Assembly (NCBI RefSeq): GCF_910596095.1
Contig: NC_056543.1
Span: 21,786,542-21,850,541, forward strand
DNA length: 64,000 nucleotides
Reading direction: 5' to 3'
Source: Thunnus maccoyii
Lineage: Eukaryota > Chordata > Actinopteri > Scombriformes > Scombridae
Below, one piece after another: positions 13,801 through 46,302 of the stretch; within the stretch, counting starts at the first letter, position 1; every line of letters starts with the position of its first letter. The position numbers were made by a program, and so were the translations under genes. The notes beneath the pieces are model-generated. The model was given only the letters and a program-made list of their open reading frames with translations. It searched no databases and was not told the DNA's origin.

Positions 13801-16800
13801 TTAAAAAATTAAACTGGTAGTTTTTGTCTGAATTAAATATTCTTTCAAATTGCTTCCAGGTAAGAGCTTCTCATTTTTTTATGATAACAATAATAATATT
13901 TAATTGATTAGCTTACATGGTCAACAATGCTCAGTTATGCCTCTAGGAAGGTTTCCTCTAAGCCCCGTCTTTGCTTCACCTCCACTAGTCTAAGTCGGAA
14001 GACTCGAGTGCTCTTCCGACCTCCGTCCAGCAGAGCGTATTGCCTCAAACCCAGCTAATGTTGGCCGGGGGACAGATTGCAGGAGTAAGTGGCCCGTTGC
14101 CTCTCTGCTTTGAGTTAAAACCAGGTTGTAGCCACGTATCTGAGGTGACACCTTAAAACATTTAACCCTGGCTGAAAAAGTGGGTGATGAAATGATCGCT
14201 TGCCCTGATTCTGTGGCTAAGGCTGGTGTCTCCTCTGCCTGTTTGCCTGTTCATCCTTGTGGTTGTTAGGCTTATGTTCAAATTCCTCCATAACAGAAAT
14301 GTTTGGACATAACCTCGGTGTGTCTGTACACTCGTGATCAGGCCAATCACGTCACATTGGCTACATTTCATTTCCATGTTTCTCCCATTTACAGCTCAGG
14401 CCATGTTGTAGTTGCAGTGATCAGTCGGGTTGAATGCGGCCGCTTTTGTGCTGTGCGGGAGTAGATGTGCATGTGGGTTTGAGTTTGAAACATTACATCA
14501 ACATGCTCATTTGCACTTGTGCCTGGCTCAGCTGCATGAGTCTTATCCCCATTTGCCTGTCTGGGCTCATATTAGTGTTGTCACGATAGTCAAAGTTTCA
14601 GTACTAATTTGATACCTATGTGAAAAGTTTAATTCAATGGCATTGTGACCTAATGTATTCATATGTAACGTAAGATGGTAAATCCACTTCACCATCATCT
14701 GTACGGGTGTGTACTGTCAAGTTGGCGTAATAAAAAGCTGTTAAATAGTTGTTGGCAACAGCATCAAACACTGCAGTCCACCTGTTGTTGTTAATAAAAC
14801 TCAAGTGTTTTTCTTTAAGTACTTAAAGACAGATCTCATGCCAACATGCCAAGACTATTAATATAATATTACACAACTACATTATGTTTTTTTTGTAAAA
14901 TGTTGCTGTGGTATTATAATGGTTACCAATATGTTGGATTTTAAACTTTGCACATGTATCAAACCCAAAACTGAGGTATCATGACAACACTAACTCATCC
15001 AATGACACTTGAATTGTATGAATCCTACTTACTTATGTCTTTCTCTTTCCCCTTTTCCTCTCTGTAACCTCCTGTATTCAGTTGACCCTGACCCCAGCAC
15101 ATCAGCAGCTGTTGATCCAGCAGGCACAAGCTCAGATCCTGGCTGCAGCCGTGCAGCATTCAGCTAGCCAGCAGAACAGCACCACTGGGGCCAGTATCTC
15201 AGCCTCCGCAGCCGCACCCATTACCCAGCTACCCCTGTCACAGCCAATCCAGATTGCTTCTGTAAGATCACACAATCAGCCATCAACCAGTTGTTTTTTT
15301 TTTTTCTGCAACTCATAGAAACAATATTTTAACAAAACTTCCTGTATGTAAACTTGTAGCCCTGAATTCTTTTTTTTTTTTTTTTTTAATGAAGCTGACT
15401 GAATAATGTGGATACCTGAATTCTATTTTCGTTGAATTATTTTAATTGTATTTCACTTTTGAAACAGGACTTAGTTTTTGATTAATGTTTTTTTTTTAAA
15501 ACTAAACTAATGTGGATGAAGATGTAAGATAGTTGTTATCTGGCTTTAAATTAGTTGGGTAAGGATTTTAAATCAAAATTTTCATTATTGTGAAAATTAT
15601 TTGCACTGTAGGAGACATCCAGAGTTTCTGTGTTGAGTAAACAAAAATCAGGTTTAAAAACTACATTCATAAATGTACTGCATCTTATTTTAAAGGTATA
15701 CTATGTGAGATTTTCCTTAAAAAAAAAAAAAAAAGGATAGATTCATACAAAAAAAACAATTAGAAGTGTGTGGTGGTGTATTTCTCCACAGAGACCCTGA
15801 CCCTGCCTGTATTTTCTTATTATTTTGCTGTGTGTGGGACGCTTCTGGGTGTCAACTTTTGGACAGTGGGTGTGTAGCCCCCAGCCAATAACAGCACGCA
15901 GGGTGTGAAGTCGGGACTAAAAATTTAGCGACCAGGTTACATCGCTGTCTCTGTGTCTCTCCTCTGCTCCGCCCTGCTCTCTATCTCGTGGATGTATAAA
16001 GAGCTGCGGGTCTGTGTATCTGCTTTACCGAAGGCAGGGCCGATCTACACACACGCAGAGCAGAGAGGCCACAGTGGACAAGATGAAGCTCTGCATTCAC
16101 ACAAAATCCCACAATGCGGCACCTGCGCGGGTCTGGGCGTGTTTATTTGTGCTTTAGAACGTAACTGCCGTGAAACAATCAGAAAATAACATTTTATCTG
16201 TTTCACGGCTTTGTTCTTGCCAGCACTGCTCGCTCTCTTCAGTCAATCTATAGCTCGCTCAACCACCCCTGCCGCTGCCAATGCAGCATTTGCATATATT
16301 TTCCAATTATGACAAAGTCGGTTGTGATGGTGCCACAATTAAACTTTGGGTGATGAGAGCTCATAGCCACAATGCTGCGGTGATGTAATTTAGTCTGGTA
16401 TATGGTGTAAACATCTATTTTTACAACATCATTCTAGAGGCCATTTGATTTGTCTTGCAGCAGCTACAGCAGCAGAATCTTGGTCTGCCTCAGTTTGTTC
16501 TCGTGCAGCCAGGTCACCCGATCGCCACATCACTGCAGCCTCAGTTCATCATCTCACAGACACCGCCTGCCCAACAAGGTAAGCGCTACAGGGGGTTGCA
16601 CTGTTTGATTTACATGCAGAATTAAGAAAAGATTTAGTTACCAAGTATGGGATTTATAATTGAAACTTTCTTTTTATCTTCCCTCCCCTGACTGTCTTTC
16701 ACTCTGCAGGCATATTGCAAGCCCCGGGTTTTCTAACTCAACTACCTCAAAGCCAAGCTAACCCCCTGCCGACTCAACAAAGCATCACCCTCACAACTCA

Positions 16801-17180
16801 GGTTGGTAATGATGCAAGCATCTCTTTTAAACTCTGAAAAATGATGGCATTTCTTTCAGCTGTACCAGGTGTTTGAATAAAAAACAACTTTTATAGACTG
16901 ACTGTGCATTTTGTTTGACCGCATGTTAATCTCCTACATTACTGCGTTTTTATTTTCCTTCTCAGACTCTTAATCTTAATTGTAATCACATTTTGTGTTT
17001 TGCAGCCTGCAACTCCAACCCGCACAACAGCAGCCACACCTATTCAGACCCTGCCCCACAGTCAGACACCACCCAAACGGTTGGACACCCCCACTCTGGA
17101 GGAGCCTAGTGATCTGGAGGAACTGGAGCAGTTTGCCAAGACCTTCAAACAGAGGCGTATCAAACTGGGCTTCACGCAGG

Positions 17181-17211
<31 letters not shown>

Positions 17212-20200
17212 CTAAATACATTTGATTGATCATTAAGGGTCCAGTGATTTGTAATTCCATGTGTTTTGCTTTTGGCAAATGAACATCAGTGGATAATCTC
17301 ATGTCATGTTCAGATTCTTAGGCCCAGTTCACACTTTGCATTAACATGTGTCTCCACATGTGTCTAAAGTGACCACTTGTGATCAGATCTCACTTCCCCG
17401 CTCAATATGCAAATAAACATGTACATCATTTCCGTTTGCAAAGACCAAATGTGGTGCAGAGGAGAGCAAAACTCAGTTAGGAGCAGCTGAGATTGTCACT
17501 AAAATGAAAATAGCTGATCCGCCTTAAAGGTCAGTCCACCTTTAGTGAGCCTAACCCATTGTCGCTAACTTTGGGACTAAGCCTTCTTCACTTTAATCAG
17601 CAGGTGGCAGGCAAGACACGGGAACTTGGCTTAGGTCTTGTTGTAGCATTTATTCACTGACAAACAGCCTAAACTGTGCACACACTGCACTGCGACGTTC
17701 ACAGCTGTACTGCTAACTTCATACTCTGCTCAGGTTGCCTGGCGTGAATGAGTATGTACTTCCGCTTCCGCAGAGGATGTCAGTTGAGTAGGTGGTCCTT
17801 CAATGTGGCCCAGGACACATTCAGTATACTCTGCTAAAAGAATGTGGCCATATACAGCCCAGACCACCTCTGAGTGATTGGATCGCATTGCGTCCTCAAT
17901 GCGCCTAGTACAGGTGTGCGTTCACACCTGTACTTGTGCACTTGTGATTGGATCACCCAAGATGCATTTTAATGCTGGGTGTGAACAGGGCCTTAATGCA
18001 TATAGCAATCATTAACAACATATTGGTGAGTCTTTTCCTGCAATACCTCCCTGTAGAGAACCAGAGTGAAATTGCTCATGATGCTGGTGCTTACATTATT
18101 CATATTTCTCTGTCCCTTCATTCTTGGTCCGTCTCTCCGTTTCTCTCCTTCTCACCAGGGGGATGTTGGCCTGGCCATGGGGAAGCTGTACGGAAACGAC
18201 TTCAGCCAAACTACCATCTCTCGCTTTGAGGCCTTGAATCTGAGCTTTAAGAACATGTGCAAACTCAAGCCATTGCTGGAGAAGTGGCTCAATGATGCAG
18301 GTTTGTCCCTGAACCCACCCAATTGACTGCTATCGAGGCAATTGCCACGGGAGTAGTAGTGTGGGCACGGGCTGTGTATCTTTACATTACCTTGTCTTTA
18401 CCTCCCTCCCCTTTCTTTGTGTCGGTGCTGTTTGTGCAGAGAACCTGACATCTGACCAGGGCCTGTCCAGCCCCAGTGCCCTGGGCTCCCCAGGCATGGG
18501 CATAGAGGGGATCAACCGCAGACGGAAGAAGAGGACCAGTATTGAGACCAACATCCGAGTGGCCTTAGAAAAAAGCTTTCTTGAGGTGAGAACAGTTAAC
18601 AGTATTGACCTGATCAGAGAAAATGAACTTCCCATCAAGCAAACATTAGAGGTTAGATGTTACCTGTTGTTGTGTACCGTGCCAGCTAAAAAATGAAGCA
18701 GTTTTTTTTTGCAATATATTGGTATATTTTCGAGAGAGTAGGATTTGAAATAAAAAAGGAAGTTTGAAACATAATGAGCATATGAATGGAAAGTGGAGCA
18801 GTGGATTATGCAGCAGGAACGGTTTTGGAGGTTTCTATTCTGCCTTGAAAACTTGTCACTATTGTCAGGAAACCCCAGTTGTAGTTTGTAAGTATGTAAT
18901 GTTATCATGGTATAAATCTTTGGTCATAATGTCTAACCTTTTAATAGATGTTATCTGAAATAAAAATGACATAAGCTGTGCTTATAGTGACAGAAGTAGT
19001 CTCCTTAGTGCTGACAGGGCATCTCTGGCTTCTTTGCCCTCTTCAAGCAGAACCAAAAACCTACCTCTGAGGAGATCACCATGATCGCTGACCAGCTCAA
19101 CATGGAGAAGGAGGTGATTCGGGTCTGGTTCTGCAATCGCCGGCAGAAAGAGAAGAGGATTAACCCCCCGAGCAGTGGCAACAGCGGAGGAGGCAACACC
19201 CCCATCAAAACCATCTTCACACCCAGTAGCCCTTTGGTAAGGATAGACACAACTTGCTCATAAGTGTTTCTTGAGGGATTATTCTTTAAGAAGTAAAGGA
19301 AAGATTGTCACAGGGTCACGCATATTTGTCACTTGTATTTGGAGGCTTGTCACGACATGTGGATATTTGTTCATTAAGCTCTTATAATTGGTTCTTTGGG
19401 CAAAGCTGCCATGACAAAAGGTTTATTATATTTGCGTGTGTAGCTGTAGCTAAATGACTCTCTAACACACATTATCTCATTCAATCCTCCCTCCTATTCT
19501 GTTGCCCAGGTGGCCAGCACAGCAAGCCTTGTGAGCAGTCCAACTATTAACACACCCACCACTCTGACTGTAAATCCAGTGATGCCTCTCACCAGCACCA
19601 GCGTCTCCAGTTTGTCTTTCACAGGTGTGTGTGCTCAACCGTATTTGCTTTTAGGAAAGTGTTAGAATTTTTAGAATTTAAGGTTAACTTTGTCGTGTTT
19701 TGTCAAATAAACCCCAATGACCCACGTTTCTCCAAAGGCACGACAGTTGGAGCCACAAACACTGCATCTGTCATCTCCACTGCACCTATGGTTACCACAG
19801 CAACCAGCTCTCCATCATTAAGCCCGTCACCAATGAGTATTCAGTCCACGACTGCAGAGAGTAAAGCTGGTGTTCATGCGCATACCGTCGTCACCCAGGC
19901 CCCGTCGTCTATAGCCACCACTTTAGGGACGGGTCAGGTGATGGTGGCGACTTCAGGGCTGTCTGCGGCGCTGCAGGGTGCCCAGTTACCCACCAGCGCC
20001 AGCCTTGCTGCTATGGCTGCTGCTGCAGGGCTCAACCCAGGACTGATGGCCCCCTCCCAGTTCACCCCAGGGTTAGTATTGGGCATGTTCAAACAGGTCC
20101 TCCAGTTATCACTTCTGTGGATTTCACTCAATTGTTCACGTCCTCTTTATTGATCAATATCCTTTTGTCTGTGTGTTCAGGGGGGCCCTGCTCAGTCTGA

Positions 20201-29269: not shown

Positions 29270-29647
29270 TTTATTTATCTGTCTTGCACTATTATTTACT
29301 GTCCACTTTGGCCCCAGAGAAATGTCTTTTCATTCTGCTATATGTATGGTTTGAATGACAATAAACTTGAACTTGATTGATTTAAAAAAAGTTAGTCTTA
29401 GAGCCAAGCTTTTCCAAGCGTTTCCTCCTGATTATAGTCTCTATGCTAAGCTAAGCTATTTTATTGCCTCCCACCAGCTCAAAATCCATACGGCTTATCA
29501 CAGACACAAACAACACACGAGAGGAGTTGACTGTCTCACATAACAGCAAGAAATATTAAACTATTCCTGATTGTAGATGAGAACTCAGGAGTTTACAGCA
29601 GAGTTAAGAGCACTCTCTTGGGATACGAGTGACCATGCAGAAAATCA

Positions 29648-32600
29648 CTAAGGATTTGGCCGTGGAGCAGAGGTACTGGGCACCAAAGTTTCAAAGGGAT
29701 CCATATCCCTCTGCTCGGCTGGGGTAGACTGTGGAGAAGAGAGACAACATTACAGTTCTGCATTGATAAGTAGTTTTCTACCCTGTGACATCAGCGAGGG
29801 GAGACCCATCGTCTATTGCATTTGCTTTGAGGAATCTCTTTTTTTTTTTTCTCTAAAGCTTAATGTTTTATGTCATGAAAGTCTTAAACAATTTAATCAG
29901 CTGTTTTTTTGTAATGAAAACCTGTAGACTTTTGGCCCTTGATGTCACGTGTTTGGCTATTGTGTTAGATATAGTTAAAATAAAAAGACACTTGTCTAAG
30001 TCCTGCAATACTCAAGTGGTTCTTCACCACAAAGTATGAATACTTAATCATGCAAATAATCCTCTTTTCTAGCTTCCTCCTAACAAGATACGCGTCATTC
30101 TGGATTCTAAATGCATCCTTCACAGCACAATGATGCTAATGTTTTCAGTCTTTTATACAATCTGAGATCAAAAGATTTTTTTGGTTCGTCCATCAACACC
30201 AAATTAGTGATGGACCCTGGATTCATGTGGTATTTATATCCCCATATCCCCAGGTATTATATCTCATATGTGATTCTTGCTACACTACACATACTGTCTA
30301 GTATATCTTGCTGTTTCCTTTTATTTTCACCATATCCCACAGTTTAAAAAAGTTTATTTTTGTTTGACAGTAATTCCCATGTGAGTGAGTTAATAACCTT
30401 ACCTCAGTTCTCTTTTTCTTGGCAGCTTTTTTCTAGAGATAAAATACAAGATGTTGATTGACAGTTTAGCGCCAGAACAGATGAGAAGGTGAAAAATCTT
30501 TATCAACAGAAGTAGTGTCGTACCTTTCTTTTTGATGTTTCAAGCACCTGGTAAGCATCGGCATCATTCGGTCTCTCAAGTTCCTACAGGGGAAAAAAAG
30601 ACAATAATAAATACAATAAATAAATACCCCACAGTAGAGCCACAGTTAAACATAATTTGGTCATGAAATTGTGTAAGAGTCCTCCTTACCTGGTAAATTC
30701 CACCATTAGCATCCTGTTTGATTCAGTGAAAAATACAGAAAGTGAACTGAAATAAACTTGAAATGCACATATCCAAGTATGCACACACATTTTATATCAG
30801 CCAATAACAGTCAACAAAGTCATAATGAGAAAATTAAGTGAGGTTGAAAAACATAAACACTTACCGGCACTTTAACAGCTTCAGATGGGGGGTAGGAAAA
30901 CTAAACAGAACAAACACTTTATAAATGAACAGGTATGTTATTTCAGGTCTGTTTAATCCATCAATTGTTGACTAATTGTTTAGTCTATTAAGCCAATTAA
31001 TTGATTAGTCAACATAAAATTAATAACCAATTAGTTTTATAATTGTTCAATTGATAAAAAAGTCATTTATTGAGCAAAAATGTGAAACATTTGCTGCTTT
31101 TTTTCAGTTTTATATTATTGTAAATTAAATGAATTTGGTCTTTGGACAGTTTGTCTGACAAAAAGTATTGTATAGACTAAGCAAATAACCAAAAAAGCAA
31201 AGTTTTGTAAAAAAAAAAAAGAGAGAGAAAAAAGAAGAAAATAATCATTAATCATTTTAATTAGGAGCTATACAACATTTTTTTTTACTCTGTCTGATCA
31301 ACAGACAAAAGACGTAAAGCTTGTACATTTTCAATAATGTAAAAAAGAAGAAGAAATTTTCACATATTCACATCTGAGAAGTTGTAACCAAAAAAATGTC
31401 CTTTTAGTTGTTGAATGAAGAGTAAAACTAAATAATTAATCAACTAATCATTCCAGTACAGATATCTTTGCGTTCCCTGAGGCCGGATGTGCTTGTGCTA
31501 CAACTCACCTTTTCTCTAAAGAAGAAAACAGTGGCAGTGATGCAGTAAACCATCAGGATCGCATCCAGGAAATAGCAGATGACCAGGTCATTAAAAAAAG
31601 GCTCTGCAGGACAAACAGGGGAGAGAATTATTCTGCTGCAGGCAGACGTGGGGGGTAACTAACCTCTGTACTTCAATACATTTTTGAAGTTCTTCAGTAT
31701 TTCTGTTTTGTGAGACTTTTCCTCCACTACATACATTTTGGAGAGAAACCACAGATCTGACAGATGTAAATAGTGGTTTGCAGATTACGATTTGATAAGG
31801 TAAGACTTTATGTCCATGTTACAGCCGCACAAGAGACAGGCAAAGACAGCAATGAATTACGCTACATAAATGAATTGTGCAAATATTAGTGTGAATATGT
31901 TTGTGCGAAATTGAGTTTAGTATTGCAACGCTGAACTGAAATCATTATTGAGGTACAGGTAGATAAGGTAGAATAGCCTTACTTGTTTTCAGTGTTGAAA
32001 TATTTTTAATTTTGGAGATAACTTTATTCATTTGATTAAGTTCTTATATAAAAAAAAATCCCTCTGCACAACTATTACAAATAAATTGCTCTCCCCTTGT
32101 TTCAGTTTATTGAGGAGTACGAGACAGGATTGTCCCTTACATCCAAACCTGTTCTCATTGGTCATAGAGCCCTTTTCAGAATCTATTGACTTCACTTCAA
32201 CAGATTCATGTAACAATATATCACTTTACACAGATGACACCTTGTTGTATGTCACCCAGCCTGGAATTAGCATTCCAGTTATCCTTAAATTGTAAATTAA
32301 TCAATTCAGGCGTTCTCTGGATCAGCTGGACCAAAAGCAAATTGATGACTGCACGATTACAAGATTTGTTTTCGTTAAAACAATTTAACAAAATAACAAT
32401 TTCCCTTTGAAGATTCTTTTGAATCCTTTACTAATTTCTCTTCTTTTATTGGGCAAAGTCAGTGCTGTGAAAATTATATTATTATATTATTTCTTCAGCT
32501 ATTGCACCTCTTTTAGAGTCTGCCCCCATATATTTCTACACAAATCATCATTTAATCAGATGGACTCAGTCATCCTCTTGTTTCTCTGGAACCATAAGAG

Positions 32601-35600
32601 TCATAGAATTAATAATAAAATTGGTGATATCTGAAGAAGAATTTTGTGGACCCAATATGTGCAGCCAATTTTGGAAAGGCCTCACCCTCTGTTATTGATA
32701 TTTTTTTATAAATCACAAATATAGTATTATATTTATATGATGTTCTACAGTCTGTTAACCCTCCATCTATGATTATACACGTTAAGACGGGCTGGCAGAG
32801 TGAACTGAGATCTGTTTAAAATCATCCACAGACTTCAATACTCAGACGCTAAACCATACAAGATATTTTCTGAGATCTCATCATGTGACGAATGTAGTCT
32901 GCAAGAAGCTAATTTACTTCACAGTTTGGTGCTTTAAAACTGCTGACCTGAGATGTTTATGTTACTCTATGTTTGCTTGATAATCATACAAATTTTTTTT
33001 TGGTATGTAAGAATTAACAATCAAATGCAAAAAGACACAACAACAGCTTGTCTCCTAAAGCTTAATTACAACCAAAAACTCATTCTTATGTACTACAAGA
33101 AGAAGGAGGTCCCCACAGTCCACTTAGTGGCTTAATGAGTTGATCAATATCCAGGTTTTTGCTCAAGGACAGACTATCACAGTTTAATAAGATCTGACAG
33201 CCTCTTACTGATGATCCAAATCTCAACATTAATCTTCAATGACCACCTGAAAGAAGTCTTATTGGTTTTTTCCCACCAGTTTTATTTATTTGCTTGTTTT
33301 TCCCTTTTCGCCAGAGCTGGTTTGGGGAGGTAAGAGTGTGTGTGTGTGTGGCAGCAGAGGGGCGAGGGTTGTATTTTTTGGCACAAAAAAAGCATAATCA
33401 GAAATACTGTTTTTTGAAAAAAATCTGGTTGAACGAAAAATAACTTTTAGGGGTTTTCTTAATTGATGTTTAACTCTTCACATGTTACAGCAGCAAGAAA
33501 CAGGCTGAGTGGAAACAGATAAACAACTGTATAAAGTAAACAAATAAAATAAACTTAGGTATACATATAAATAAGGAATATAATATCCATAAAAAATATT
33601 CAACATAAGGAAAATATCACTGATGTTGGGTACAAATCTAGTTTTTGTTTGTGTATCTTTCATCCTGTAGTGAAAAATGATGTACCGCTATCTCAAACTT
33701 TGGAGGATTTCATTACTGATGCTTCAACTCTTTTGTTCACTTTGTTAATTTTCTTGTCAATACTTGTTTCTTTTTGCTTCAGTAAAACTGTGAATGTAAA
33801 CACTTTTACTTGTAAGATAGTTCAATATAAGACTCACATGTTACAGCAGCACAAGAGACACGCTATACAGATAATGTACTATTTGAATTATACAAATACA
33901 GTAAAACTAAACTAAATAACAAATTATGATAATTATATTTAATACATTACGATACCTCAGACTGTACCAATGAGTTGTGCAAATACAGTATATATATCCA
34001 GAAAGAATGAGTCTGATGATGAAGAAACAAGTAGCTATATTGTGTGTACTATACATGATATAAATATGGCTATATGTATAAGTATGAATAATAAATACTA
34101 TAAAGATTGAAATATATGGAAATATATACAGAGATGTTATATATAATACGTAATAGGTGTGCACTATATATAATATAATGCATGTTAAATAATGTCTGAT
34201 ATTTTTATAGTAATAGAAATAGAAAGAATATTGTGATAAGCTGTGTTATATACTATAAAATATAGTACATAAAGAATATAATAATGTTATATGTTATAAT
34301 GTAATGTTTCATGGTGGAATATTTATGATTTGTTACAATACTGGATGTAAGAGGAGTTAAGTGTTTCACTTCTCTCTGCAGCTGTAAAAAGTAGGGCCTC
34401 AGCATATGTGTGTGAATGTGTGTGTGTGACTCTGTTGCACGACATACAGGATATCCACTCAGCAACATGGGATGGAAAATAACAACATACTGAGGCACAT
34501 GAGAGAATTGAGCAAGTCCTCCTCAAACAGGAAATAAGAAACTATCTGCAGTTGAGGACTTTAAGCGTCTTCCTGTCAGCACGATAGGTTGCTCTGTGGT
34601 TTTGATGAGACTCATTTATCTCAATGTGCGGTTGGAAAAGAAGCCATGTTGTGAGAACGTAGCCGGTGGTGGTGATTCATTGGGGCTATAACTTCCTTCA
34701 TCTAATCTTGATGATCTAAAGTTGCAACATTTCTCCTAAGTTATTTTTATACTTCAAAATTCTGCAATTAGTATTACTGAGAAGGGGAGAAAACTGAAGG
34801 TCCACTGTGCTGATGTTTCCCAAAATGCTGCCACAGAAACTCTTCAGCTCACCTTTCATTTGTGCTTTATCTTGTTTTCATTTTTTTATACATAAATTGT
34901 TAATTTGTAGAAATTGTTCGGGTTGGTAACCCTTTTATAAAATCTATAATATCTTTTATCTATTCGCTTTCATATTAAGAGTGAGTTGAGCTGAGAGTGG
35001 TATCAATCTTCTCATCTAACTTGCAGCAACAAAGTGATTAAGTGTATTTTCCAAAATGTCAAATGTTCCTTTACACATGGTACTAAGTAGCAGTCTGCCA
35101 GTGGGTGTGTTGATTTAAATGTATGCATTTTTAAATGTGCGCAGCCAAACTCTGTTCACAAATTTTTATTTTTTCATCCTAAAGTTTTAAATACACCAAA
35201 ATGTCAGGTTGAATTTTGGGGAAACGTGTGTATAATAATGCACAAGAAATCTAGAATATTTTCACATGCTGCAGCCATAAAAACCTGGGTTTGTATATTT
35301 CACTCAGTGTAAACATAATTACTTCACTAAAGAGCTGGAACAAGATAATACACAATCAATATATTGTCAGTCGTCAAACTTTAAAGCCACTTAACGGGGA
35401 AACTGTATGCTGAGGGGTTAGGGATGTTGTTTTCTTCAAGCTAACATGTAGCACATTGCCTGATCAATACTGAGTGATTATTGCTTACTTGGCCTGGTGT
35501 TTTGACATGTCTCAGTATATCGCAGGATAGAATATCATCTGTAAATAAATGAAGCAATCCTGCCGTTCAAAAGGTCAGGAGGTTATGAGCATGCAGCAGA

Positions 35601-36673
35601 GTAAGTAAATATTTGAATATGTTCTTCGCAGCAACCATCCTTCGTAGTGTGTTTTTCTGCTGCAGAAGATCTGACGTTTTATCTTCTTACTCTGGAAAAC
35701 TAACAGTGAAAATTCACCATCAGTGTTTTCATACGCAGTATAGTGTCTGGAGGGAGATTATTTATTTATGCACATGCTTCCCTTCATCATGATGAATCTG
35801 ACTGAAATACATGACAGGACTTGAAAGTGTTTTTGATCATTATGAATATTTTTTTTTTCACAAACCCCACTAACTACGACATGAAGCAGAAAACCTGGGA
35901 AACATCAAATGCACACAAACTTCTGCCGATGAAAACTCAAACGTCTCAAGTTAAACCCAAAGGAAAGAAAATTATTTTACATTTCATTCTTCATTGATAC
36001 AGAGTAAGAAGAAAATGTACATTCTTATATTCTACGGTTATTATAATAACCAACGTGCCGCTGCTGTGTGGGAAGTTTCAGAGCTAAAAGGTTTTGTGCA
36101 TTGAATTGATTAATAATTGACTATAATTTTCCATCACTGGTTCCTATGTTCCAAATATAGACAATCATCTTCATGATATTAGAATGGAAACTTTACAAAG
36201 TGGATGACTGAGCGGATGACTATTACAAAATCTCTTTCCTCTCTGCTATTTTGTTTTGCATAAATCAGTAAGGTGATTCACTCTTTCCTTTATTTAAATA
36301 TCCAAAAAGTGAATAAAGAAAAAAGTAAAACTTCATTTTAAGGGTTGACTGCTCTCTCGACTGCCGATTATCTGAGCAGCGAGGGCCTGTGTTACGAAGG
36401 ACAACAAAGATTTCCGTAGGGATGTTAGAGTTTAGTTTTACTAAATAAATTCAGCATCATTCTTATAACACCTGCAGACTCCCTTCCAATACCAACCAGC
36501 TGATATACATTTCTTTTTCCATGTGTGGAAACATTTCAGGCCTTTTATCAAACTCAGTAAAGTGAATAAGATTAGAATCAAATGGCTGCTTTAGATCTGC
36601 ATCGCTTACCTGAACAGGATACAGGCACCACGAGCCCAAACAGCACAAACACACCTGTCCTCAGTGTGTTCAT
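29648..36673 (-). CDS. cd247: CD247 (CD3 zeta) family adaptor with a single intact ITAM
   Basis: T/NK-cell receptor signalling adaptor of the zeta/FcR-gamma family. Exons in coding order are 36610-36673, 31509-31603, 30865-30900, 30690-30713, 30524-30583, 30403-30432, 29648-29728; phases agree and give 129 aa (human zeta 164). Residues 1-21 are a signal peptide. The ectodomain is very short (EPFFND). The membrane segment is about 28-50 and contains Cys31 and Asp35 in the context CYFLDAIL, matching the dimerising Cys and TCR-pairing Asp of zeta and FcR gamma. One ITAM is Y72QEL-x8-Y84QVL, split between exons as in mammals. Then come a basic stretch (KKKAAKKKR) and a tail with F115ETL in place of YxxL. 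ITAMs 2 and 3 were not found in the introns. Synteny (convergent with POU2F1, as in human) supports CD247 over FCER1G; a cd247-like paralogue is possible. Confidence 0.82.
30945..31460. repeat. Degenerate hAT-like repeat in CD247 intron 2
   Basis: AT-rich sequence full of ATTAATTGATTAG-type text and ending 'aactaatcattccagta'. It resembles in inverse orientation the better-preserved copy at 51315-51612. Boundaries are approximate. Confidence 0.45.
31604..36609 (-). other. CD247 intron 1
   Basis: About 5 kb separates the signal-peptide exon from the transmembrane exon. Apart from the L1 relic it is AT-rich and noncoding; 33500-34300 is especially AT-rich with TATATA runs. No missing ITAM-coding exon was seen in it or in the 3' introns. 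Confidence 0.65.
32080..33150 (+). mobile_element. Decayed L1-type non-LTR retrotransposon (ORF2 3' half)
   Basis: Frame-broken translations give RQDCPLHPNLFSLVIEP and ISLYTDDTLLYV (the reverse-transcriptase YxDD motif) at about 32125-32260. A WISWTKSKL-like piece follows near 32320, then an LFLWNHKSHRIN-like piece near 32590. A CDECSLQEANLLHSL Cys/His stretch near 32880-32930 resembles the C-terminal zinc-knuckle region of L1 ORF2. It lies antisense in CD247 intron 1 and is dead, with several frameshifts and stops. Confidence 0.7.
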
Positions 36674-37049
36674 GGCTCTCCCTCCTTGTTTCTTTCTCTC
36701 TCCGTCTGTAGAAACGTTCTTTCTTTCTTTACCTCCTGGTTGCTTTCGGTTGCCTCACTTTTATCTTTTTTTTCCACCCCACTCTGATCAGAGGAAGTGG
36801 CTGAACTGAGTAGCTGCCAATGGACTGAGACTTGGTTGTGTGTACTTCAAAGCATCGTACAAGCTTCAACACCCACAGTAACGCTCAGTGACTGTGTCAT
36901 GTTCAGCTGCTTCGGATATTCTGTTTGATTGTGTAGCGAGAAGAATGCTTTATATGTACAAGCAGGACACCTTTTTAAAACAGACCTTCACCGTTATCCG
37001 ACAGTGAAATAAAAGACGAGTAAACTTCTTCTAGTAAACTATTAAAATT

Positions 37050-37432
37050 TTAAAGGTGCAGTGTGTAGAATTTATGGGCATCGAGCTGAATGCATGTGGT
37101 GGAAAAGGAATATAATATTCATGAGTAGGTTTTAATTAGTGTATAATCACCTGAAAATAAGAAAAGTTGTGTTTTCGTTACCTTAGAATGAGCCCTTTAT
37201 ATCTACATAGGGAGCAGGTCCTCTTCCACGAGGCCCGCCATGTTGCACCACCATGTTTCTAGAGTAGCCCAGAACAGACAAACCAAACACTGGCCCTAGA
37301 GAGGGCCTTTCACGTTTTTCGTGAGTTTCGTGGCCACCGTGGGTTCTCCGACACACTTGGAAGAGGAGGGGGATTCAGTTGGTTGCAACCTCACCACTAG
37401 ATGCCACTAAATCCTACACACTGATCCTTTAA
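37050..37432. mobile_element. TTAA-ended MITE, 383 bp
   Basis: The left end TTAAAGGTGCAGTGTGTAGA and the reverse complement of the right end TTAAAGGATCAGTGTGTAGG continue matching through ATTTAnnGGCATC, about 31 bp of inverted repeat. This element with 'caacctcaccactagatgcc' near its end is one of the most widespread MITEs of percomorph fishes. Confidence 0.8.
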
Positions 37433-39082
37433 GTGAACAATCAAAATTGACCGAATATAATATCATAAGCGGTATTCAATCAATTGTTTATATCACACTA
37501 TAATGTGGTTGTAAGCATTTTTAAGGACATTTAAAGTGTTTCTATTTGAGTTCTTAACACATTTTAAACCTGCACGTGAAAGATTTTTTCATGTGTATCA
37601 ACTATTAATATATTAAATATATGATTATACACGATTACAGCTACGTCATACTTCATTATAAACCATTCATTAACTGGTTATTCACCAGCTTGGAGGTTTC
37701 ACAGGAGAAGTTGGAGCTGTTGACAAATGCAATAATAAACATACATAATATGTCCTTGTATTGGCTTACAAATACATTACAGTGTGTTTTAAACTATTAA
37801 GTGCTATACTGCGTACAAATACTATATAAAGTAAAATGAAGTGTTACTGAAATGGTTTATTGTGCTGGATTTTCTTGAAAATCATAACATTTCGATGAAG
37901 CTCACGATTTGTATTGTAGTGCAAATTATGCTTTTATAAGTGTATTATCTTTTAAGAAAGACAACAACGTCTTGCAAAGGAAAATACAAGTAATCCTAAT
38001 TAAGGTGAATTTTGTTTCTTTAAGCATAAACCAGTCAACATTCTTTTCTGAGGTACTTAAGGGACCAAACAAACTTTAAAATGCAGCAGTTTATGTCACT
38101 TACATGTATCTAAAAATATGCCAAACAGATTAAAGTTATCAAGCAGAGAGTAAAAATCTGATTGTACAGATTATGGCGTGCAAACTGTGTCTTTCAGTTT
38201 AACAATCAAAGGGAGAAATGCCTGTTTAAGTGACTGCATGTTAAAAAGGTCAAAAGATAAGTTGCCCTTATGATACTTAAATGTTCGTGTTTGTCTGTGT
38301 AGAGGAAGGGGTTACACACACGAGACCTCTGCATCTTTCCAAAGTGTTGCATAATCACACTGATCTGTGACACTAAAGGAAACTTGCAGGCAGAGAAGTG
38401 GTCGGTTGAAGTAGCACAGAGAGGAGACTCAATTTTAACAACTGTGTGTGAAATGTTCAGGGACTTCTGACTGAGGCGTGACCTTACAGGACCTTTAATT
38501 ACATGCTCACGTTCTCTGGACCCTGTTAGTTAGTTAATAGCTTGTGCTGTGAGCTGCATGTAGTTTTGTTGCTGTTTGGAGAAACTGTTTGGAGAAACAC
38601 AAAGAAGGAATTTAATACTAAAAAGACTGTAACTTTGGAGGGCAACTAATAGATAAACAATGATATTGAGATCTAATACATTTGAATTTACACTTGTATT
38701 TTATCTAAAATACCCTGAAATAACATACAACTGATCTTAGTATATTAAAAAGAACAGTATTTCTCTCTGAAGTGAAGTGGGGTAGGTGTGTGAAGTGACA
38801 TAATATTTATTTACTGAAGTTAAAGTATAAATAAGTCTGTATGTATGCACACAAATACAGAAGCTGAGTAGAGAAAAGATAAGAATAAAGTGCAGATTAT
38901 ATGTACTTTCAACATCCCTATAGCCATGAGGGTCTGTCTGACATTCTTCCCCCAGCGAGATGTTTTTGGGCATCCCTTTATGGAGAACTGAACTGGCATA
39001 AATATATATGGTTAACTGGTGATATTGTGTTAATAATAAGGTAATTATAGTTTGTTTTAGGATTTTGGAGAAGTTTAGACTG

Positions 39083-44600: not shown

Positions 44601-46302
44601 CTCTGGTAAGAGCTCTGCCGTCACTGTTACGTATTTCCAAACCTTGTGCATAAAAAAAAGGATCATAGTTTTCATCCACTTGCCAACTTGCAGGCGGTTT
44701 TATTTTCATCTAGTACTTTCTGAAACAACCACTAGATGGCAGCTGGAGTTTTAAAGTAAACTGGTTCATTTGCTTGACTGCAGTGTTACTGACTTTTCCT
44801 CCAGAATACTACATCCAACAAGTACCACTTGAATGAAGTGTCTCTGTCAGCAGTTTTGCCAGACGTGAAAGGTAAGAAAATTCTTCCTCCCAGTATTGCA
44901 TGCTAGTGTTCAATCTGTGCTGTGATCTTAATCCACTGCTCAGTTTTTCTGGCTCAAAATGAGGGAAAGGTGGCATCACAACTGTAACATAAACAAAAAA
45001 CAGCTAAACATGCACCAGATCCTAAACCAATATGTTAGACAACATATATCATACTATAATTGACAGTAATTTGGTGTTAAAATATTTTTTATTCATACAC
45101 CGAAGGTTATCAAACAGTGAATGTTATTTTTACAGACCCTCATATATTTATCTTAAACACACATTTTCACACCTTGATGCATAAAATCTACACTGAAATG
45201 CCTGAAAAAATATATATAATAAAAATAAATGAATATATAACACCCGTCTAATATGACGTAATCAAACACAGCAGCTGTGGAAAACTGCTGATAATATAGA
45301 ATATGTATTATATATTTAAATGAAATCCTTAACATCTGATTGGATCTCATAAGTGAATTTAAATTAGACCTCAGTGGTTAAGTGCTGTTTTGTGTGACGA
45401 GCGGGGTTAACAAGTTGACCCTAAATCACATTTGATTGAATACATTTATGTATAGCCCCTGAGGGCGGGATGAGATGAAGAGAAAAGATGGATTTTGAGA
45501 TAAAACACTAAAAAAATGACATTTTGACAAACACCAAGAGACAACTAAACAGTTAACAGGGGCACAGAATCAGAATTTGGACGATGTATTTTCACTTCAC
45601 TGTCTTTATCAATCAATCATTTACTTTATTTGTCCTCAAGGGACAATTGATTTTTCAGCAGTGCAACAGGATAAAAGATTAGATAGAAGCACATGAACAC
45701 AACATGTAAACATAAACACATCAATAGATACAAAAGAAAGCGGAGTACAGAAATAAAAATAATTTAAAACCAACAGTTTCAGTATAAATAATGTAAAATT
45801 ATTCTGCTGAGTAGGTTTTATCACATTAAATACCAGAAACCTCTGTCTTGTCTTTTCATTCCTCATTCTGTCCTCTGTCACAGAGCCCTTCTCAGCCCAT
45901 AATGGCAGTCTGGACTACCTGCGAGGCACCCTGGGCTACTCATACATGTGCCGCGAGGAACAAACTCTTGATGTAGCTCCAGATTTGTCCATCAACACCT
46001 TCCAGGTGCAGGTGCAGCCCTTCGGCCTCACTGGAGATCAGTTCGGAGCAGGTAGACACATTCTGCCATTAAAAAGAGATGATTTTCTTATTCTCAAGTA
46101 GAATATGATGAAATGAATCCGCTGCTTCTCTGATCTAATTTGTCCTCTCTTTTCTCTCTCAGCTGAGGAGTGTCAGCTGGATGAAGACGACATGTTGATC
46201 CCCATCATAGTTGGAGCAGCTTTAGCTGGTCTCGTCCTCATCGTGCTCCTGGCCTACCTCATTGGCAGGAAGAGGAGCCATGCGGGCTACCAGACCATCT
46301 GA
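41672..46302 (+). CDS. lamp1: LAMP1-like lysosomal membrane glycoprotein with one LAMP domain
   Basis: Type I protein of the lysosome limiting membrane. Exons are 41672-41732, 44212-44393, 44477-44605, 44805-44871, 45884-46051, 46163-46302; phases agree and give 248 aa, against about 417 in mammalian LAMP1. Residues 1 to about 24 are a signal peptide. Residues 29-47 are a Pro/Thr hinge (ATVAPPATAPPHKDPGRP). The LAMP domain is about 50-206, with paired Cys 61/100 and 169/206 and six N-glycosylation sequons (N57, N71, N92, N117, N125, N153). The membrane segment is about 213-236. The tail RKRSHAGYQTI carries the GYxxI lysosomal sorting signal, identical to mammalian LAMP1. The match is to hinge plus the second LAMP domain; the first domain is absent and nothing like it was seen in the 2.5-kb intron 1. 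The GRTP1-DCUN1D2 neighbourhood supports LAMP1 rather than CD68 or LAMP3. Confidence 0.88.
41733..44211 (+). other. LAMP1 intron 1
   Basis: 2.5 kb, AT-rich. I looked for exons encoding a first LAMP domain (NGT/C-type starts, Cys-containing translations flanked by AG and GT) and saw none. Apart from the partial MITE at the left it holds no recognised feature. Confidence 0.6.
41862..42080. repeat. Partial hAT-like MITE copy in LAMP1 intron 1
   Basis: Starts CAGTGGTGGGAGATATACAG and runs through 'aaaatactccattacaagca' and 'tgcatgaaaaatcctaacgt', matching in reverse orientation the right part of the MITE at 40384-41275. The other end is not preserved. Confidence 0.65.

Follow-up and report, generated by a model that had tools for sequence, protein, structure and literature searches.

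A stretch of 64,000 nucleotides from Thunnus maccoyii (assembly GCF_910596095.1, contig NC_056543.1, positions 21,786,542 to 21,850,541 of the forward strand), the whole of which we call the window, carries on its minus strand a gene that a preliminary description had presented as a CD3-zeta (CD247) homologue with one immunoreceptor tyrosine-based activation motif (ITAM) instead of three. In the zeta/FcR-gamma family, the chains dimerise through a cysteine, pair with their receptor through an aspartate and recruit Syk or ZAP-70 through their ITAMs, the number of which tunes receptor signalling. We consider it likely that the window locus is a real, probably expressed gene encoding a single-ITAM transmembrane adaptor and that it represents a diverged second copy of cd247. 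Judged by its sequence, it is a cd247-like, fast-evolving paralogue.

The gene runs from 36673 to 29648 in seven exons that join in phase, all six introns being of the GT-AG type, and the exons total 390 bp, which encode 129 amino acids and a stop. Exon 1 (36610..36673) contains the ATG and, as judged by eye, a signal peptide, MNTLRTGVFVLFGLVVPVSCS, and is followed by the donor gtaagc. Exon 2 (31509..31603) encodes a short extracellular stalk and the transmembrane segment ICYFLDAILMVYCITATVFFFREK, which includes Cys31 and Asp35 and matches the Pfam family TCR_zetazeta (PF11628) with 32.6 bits for a cut-off of 25. The juxtamembrane part, FSYPPSEAVKVP, is encoded by exon 3 (30865..30900, 36 bp) and the first ITAM tyrosine by exon 4 (30690..30713, 24 bp; DANGGIYQ), the size and place of which are like those of exon 4 of FcR-gamma; exon 5 (30524..30583, 60 bp; ELERPNDADAYQVLETSKRK) supplies the second half of the ITAM, exon 6 (30403..30432, 30 bp; KKAAKKKRTE) lies within a basic stretch and exon 7 (29648..29728) encodes STPAEQRDMDPFETLVPSTSAPRPNP and the stop. 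A probable polyadenylation signal of the gene, AATAAA, is found on the same strand at 29460..29465.

In the 76-residue tail of the joined protein, the pattern Y..[LI].{6,8}Y..[LI], by which we define an ITAM, occurs as Y72QEL-ERPNDADA-Y84QVL, with a spacer of 8 residues, and it arises by chance in 8 of 20000 shuffles of this tail. Residues 90-101 form the basic stretch (net charge +9), which is followed by a 26-residue end. The rebuilt model and the motif search thus agree with the preliminary description of seven in-phase exons giving 129 amino acids and one intact ITAM, and Cys31 and Asp35 of the transmembrane segment are indeed kept in the joined protein; a cysteine with an aspartate four residues on is present in the TCR_zetazeta segment of the FcR-gamma genes likewise. 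A search of NCBIfam with the window protein returned no family, and a match to UPF0239 (E 0.0007, below the cut-off of that family) was taken as chance.

Further ITAM exons were sought by scanning 31508-29440 for in-phase open exons with an acceptor and a donor, using strict and loose filters. The strict scan returned two candidates, exons 5 and 6, so that two of the four internal exons of the model (3 and 4) were missed; applied to the three-ITAM cd247 gene on contig C24 described below, it returned six candidates, namely the five internal ITAM exons in full plus an additional, overlapping one, although a filter of much the same kind had served to detect these exons in the first place. The loose scan returned 30 candidates, all four internal model exons among them. 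Of the others, one at 30117-30085 and a shorter form sharing its end (..NDAYL) stop at Y-x and have poor splice sites, and one at 31443-31372 looks like a second ITAM half, but is located ahead of exon 3; examined by eye, none of them completes an ITAM with downstream sequence. In intron 1, loose filters gave 40 candidates, five of them with half-motifs. Between 29728 and 30403, where the preliminary description had envisaged additional ITAM exons, no candidate completed an ITAM by eye, no second ITAM was found computationally in the exon scans of the window gene and, from its sequence, the gene most likely carries a single one. Since introns interrupt the ITAMs, nothing can be learned from a genome-wide search with the ITAM family, which gave two weak matches, neither over the cut-off and one of them on C9.

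Searching the genome (782 Mb in 54 contigs, with the window on C11) for other family members, we found with the PF11628 profile four places, on C24, on C22, on C12 and in the window, the last having the lowest score (32.4 bits vs 62.5, 57.2 and 53.4). The C24 gene is a cd247 with three ITAMs (YTDL..YAPL, YTDL..YKEL and YQGL..YDSL; spacers 7, 7, 7) that occupies 1043060-1058082 on the minus strand in eight exons, the juxtamembrane part and the first ITAM half being encoded together by one 45-bp exon; its exon 1, at 1058082-1058022, is one of four listed candidates. The C22 (5419.5-5427.1 kb) and C12 (24354.2-24356.2 kb) genes both encode FcR-gamma, and each has a single ITAM, a 24-30 bp exon ahead of the second ITAM half and, by eye, a location among immunoglobulin (Ig)-domain frames. 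The second CD247 with three ITAMs, which the preliminary description had proposed to look for in the assembly, is therefore present, on C24, and the window gene is not the sole zeta chain.

The same description had left the choice between a zeta gene that lost ITAMs and a distinct paralogue. The three-ITAM cd247 on C24 speaks for a paralogue; remains of lost ITAMs were not recognised in the tail. Exons 6-7 (..KKRTE / ..RDMDPFETL) were considered as a worn ITAM3 with a Tyr to Phe change and rejected, with z-scores of -1.1 against C24 ITAM3 and -0.6 against human ITAM3, and the best of ten targets for this tail was C24 ITAM1 (z 1.4), a fit reached by 10% of shuffles. Exon 3 (FSYPPSEAVKVP) was compared with five candidate exons, none of which beats shuffles, the best being that of human FcR-gamma (reached by 11% of shuffles).

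With CD247 the window gene shares the short stalk, the Cys-x3-Asp transmembrane segment with Tyr/Thr at +10/+15 from Cys, a phase-0 intron after Y-x that splits the ITAM halves, an ETS core before the ATG and, as regards human CD247, the vicinity of POU2F1 and basic stretches in the tail. It differs from CD247 by its one ITAM instead of three and its seven exons instead of eight and, compared with the C24 gene, by its spacer of 8 rather than 7, 7, 7 and by a juxtamembrane exon split in 36 + 24 bp rather than an unsplit one of 45 bp. With the FcR-gamma genes of C22 and C12 it shares the single ITAM, a similar ITAM segment and a 36-42 bp spacer exon followed by a 24-30 bp exon ending in G-I-Y-x; ahead of the second ITAM half, the layout is 36 + 24 bp in the window, 42 + 24 on C22 and 36 + 24 to 30 on C12, the C22 and C12 spacer exons being picks from 3 and 4 candidates. 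The likeness to FcR-gamma noted earlier is stronger than had been stated and includes the exon layout as well as the ITAM segment, which scores best against C12. FCER1G has five exons and a single ITAM in a short tail. Unlike FcR-gamma, the window gene has two extra 3' exons with the basic stretch and the 26-residue end, hence seven exons and a 76-residue tail, its transmembrane segment ends in FFFREK instead of LYCR (C22, C12 and human), its ITAM spacer is 8 instead of 7, and it is found on a different chromosome, between POU2F1 and a LAMP-type gene and not among Ig-domain frames. DAP12 (TYROBP) also has one ITAM, which starts with YQEL in the human sequence, but beyond the motif its fit to the window ITAM segment is no better than that of shuffles (z 0.4) and its transmembrane segment differs.

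The coding parts of POU2F1 (glutamine-rich, POU-specific, homeodomain and later) were recognised by eye and by sequence query at 16449..20153 on the plus strand, an approximate extent, and POU2F1 and the window gene adjoin on opposite strands, in agreement with the convergent arrangement reported earlier. The human order is POU2F1 (+), CD247 (-), CREG1 (-). A 50-residue POU2F1 query matched the window with 100% identity and three other places of the genome with 65, 67 and 58%, which were taken for POU2F2/POU2F3 and none of which is on C24. On C24, a CREG-domain gene (-) lies at ~1067.5 kb, about 9 kb before exon 1 of cd247 (-), and a DNAJC27-like gene (by eye) at ~1036-1037.5 kb. With regard to the place between POU2F1 and CREG1, the window gene matches the POU2F1 side and the CREG-domain gene adjoins the C24 copy instead, so that each cd247 copy adjoins one of the human CD247 neighbours. 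Duplication of one POU2F1-CD247-CREG segment is the simplest reading, and the window gene would probably derive from the duplication of the teleost genome, although the tree does not place it and a LAMP-type neighbour has its near copy elsewhere, as described below.

Sequence comparison with proteins of solved structure ranked CD3-zeta chains best (E 1.7e-6), with an alignment that starts ahead of the transmembrane segment and includes ITAM1; FcR-gamma followed with 4.5e-4 at best. Among the human CD247 ITAMs, ITAM2, whose spacer is also 8, scores 34 with the window segment vs 24 and 22 for the two others, a weak fit reached by 6% of shuffles, and ITAM2 of C24 scores 22 with a spacer of 7. We propose that the POU2F1-CD247-CREG segment was duplicated, probably when the whole genome doubled in teleosts, and that ITAMs would then have been lost, perhaps through the loss of one CD247 exon leaving an ITAM2-like pair. 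We regard ITAM loss from a duplicated CD247 as the likeliest origin.

All four family genes have ACTTCC (GGAAGT, an ETS core) in one orientation before the modelled ATG, at -125 in the window (36793..36798, minus strand, 125 bp before the ATG), -128 on C24, -126 on C12 and -137 on C22, and ACTTCC[GT] is found in three of the four (not on C22, which has ACTTCC only). None of 20000 composition-shuffle sets had ACTTCC[GT] within 4 bp in three of the four genes, but these shuffles preserve base composition only and the site emerged from a panel of five motifs; the distances furthermore depend on the ATGs of C24, C22 and C12, which were picked among several candidates before the promoters were inspected. 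In human, the promoters of CD247 and FCER1G also contain ETS sites. The presence of an ETS core ahead of the ATG in all four modelled genes suggests that the window copy is probably alive in leukocytes. The near-constant distance of ACTTCC in the four genes may also point to a proximal promoter element inherited from the ancestor of the zeta/FcR-gamma family.

As regards function, we suggest that the window protein most likely serves innate activating receptors as an adaptor with one ITAM. By analogy with its relatives, Cys31 would link the chain by disulphide bonds in dimers with itself, zeta or FcR-gamma, Asp35 would pair the chain with activating receptors of natural killer (NK)-like, T or myeloid cells through a basic residue of their transmembrane segment, and the one ITAM per chain would recruit Syk or ZAP-70, while the +9 basic stretch may hold the tail at the membrane. 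Genes described as cd247-like in fishes are already in print, and those of zebrafish and channel catfish (cd247l, CD3-zeta-like) are leukocyte adaptors that are candidate counterparts of the window gene (PMC5340972, PMC4810170, PMC11955638). Zebrafish cd247l is among the differentially expressed genes of NK-like cells (PMC5340972), a T/NK cluster of catfish is high in cd247l (PMC11955638), and catfish LITR 2.6b co-precipitates CD3-zeta-L, including CD3-zeta-L that is paired with FcR-gamma-L in a heterodimer (PMC4810170). In mice, inactivation of all zeta ITAMs impairs innate-like T cells and follicular helper T cells, but not general responses (PMC4428620). A one-ITAM chain serving innate receptors would fit this catfish, zebrafish and mouse literature.

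Several results weigh against a diverged cd247 copy with this role, in addition to the three limits of the ETS comparison given above. The surface expression of LITR 2.6b was not raised by catfish CD3-zeta-L (PMC4810170). The window ITAM segment is nearest to that of the C12 FcR-gamma (score 39, z 4.2), above human ITAM2 (34), C22 FcR-gamma (31) and human FcR-gamma (29), and the ITAMs of C24 reach only 21-22. In the transmembrane exon, the window gene is identical to each of five relatives at 10-12 of 26 positions (10 of 26 for C24) and those five are identical to one another at 11-19. A six-row tree, in which no inner branch is starred, does not place the window gene, whose terminal branch is very long (8.05 changes per column), and a p-AU of 0.349 neither supports its grouping with C24 nor rejects it. 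Finally, the LAMP-type transmembrane exon of the window (46117-46299, plus strand) has its nearest second copy on C1 (26118332-26118469, 91% identical) and not on C24, which is a misfit with a simple C11-C24 duplicate pair, counts against such a pair and suggests that this part of C11 may be paired by duplication with C1 and not with C24.

Another explanation would be a third, ancient zeta/gamma lineage that split off before CD247 merged the juxtamembrane part and the first ITAM half in one exon, and that was kept at the fish POU2F1 locus and is absent in tetrapods, as an FcR-gamma-like adaptor for fish-specific innate receptors whose single ITAM has a spacer of 8 residues and whose tail is strongly basic. 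The FcR-gamma-type layout, with a spacer exon and a short exon in place of the single 45-bp exon of C24 cd247, the proximity of the ITAM segment to C12 FcR-gamma and the very long branch favour such a lineage; we nevertheless regard it as rather unlikely, since the window gene adjoins POU2F1, the site of CD247 in human, since the sequence search ranks CD3-zeta chains above FcR-gamma and since dropping one exon of an eight-exon CD247 gives the same layout. Two histories fit: an eight-exon CD247 may have dropped one exon while keeping an ITAM2-like pair, or the FcR-gamma layout may come from an older lineage, and we tentatively favour the first one. The long branch, together with the lowest PF11628 score of the four (32.4 bits vs 53-63) and a tail without recognisable remains of further ITAMs, would also be expected of a decaying copy that is heading to a pseudogene, still open but functionless, an explanation we consider improbable, as the gene has seven open exons with GT-AG introns, an intact ITAM with both tyrosines, its polar transmembrane residues, an ETS core at the family position and a polyadenylation signal. 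The preliminary description had expected a reduced signalling output; if the T-cell receptor (TCR) was meant, this is not borne out. That the window gene is a working TCR zeta chain with fewer ITAMs, which would lower TCR signal strength, could be argued from its position next to POU2F1 and from the impairment, in mice with inactivated zeta ITAMs, of responses needing strong TCR signals (PMC4428620), but it is hardly credible in view of the canonical three-ITAM cd247 on C24, and we see no grounds for supposing that the Thunnus maccoyii TCR is limited to zeta chains with a single ITAM.

The result for the window itself is modest, with no sign of a reduced T-cell receptor in Thunnus maccoyii. 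A wider interest of the diverged cd247 copy lies in the ITAM number: the mouse study relied on engineered animals to address why zeta has three ITAMs (PMC4428620), and an animal that has both an intact three-ITAM zeta and a zeta paralogue with one ITAM would be a natural experiment on the same subject. The ITAM number of a fish cd247l was not found in the literature searched on cd247l or CD3-zeta-like genes in fishes, as far as the accessible texts go. The window gene could also help to date the divergence of FcR-gamma and CD247.

Beyond the window gene, the gene order on its side continues with LAMP-type, TBC-domain and DCUN1D2-like genes and then a GRK-like gene past the window end, and that of C24 includes SETDB2-like, ADP-ribosylglycohydrolase-like and Gla-domain genes on one side and DNAJC27-, ADCY3- and XDH-like genes on the other, all these names being given by eye. 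Pfam searches of some of these neighbours gave matches over the cut-off for CREG, LAMP, TBC, RGS and Gla, matches under it for ADP-ribosylglycohydrolase and the GRK kinase part, and none for the DCUN1D2-like and ILDR-like frames. The C11 and C24 segments both hold genes known from human 13q. On C11, to the left of the window (L027:6700-7209, minus strand), we observed an Ig-like open frame that looks ILDR2-like by eye and has no Pfam match; ILDR2 is a neighbour of POU2F1 in human. Upstream of the window gene, 37050-37435 resembles what we take to be a common fish repeat of the short interspersed or miniature inverted-repeat transposable element type. Within intron 1, two 27-nt direct copies (31815-31841 and 33837-33863) are 93% alike and are perhaps part of a dispersed repeat.

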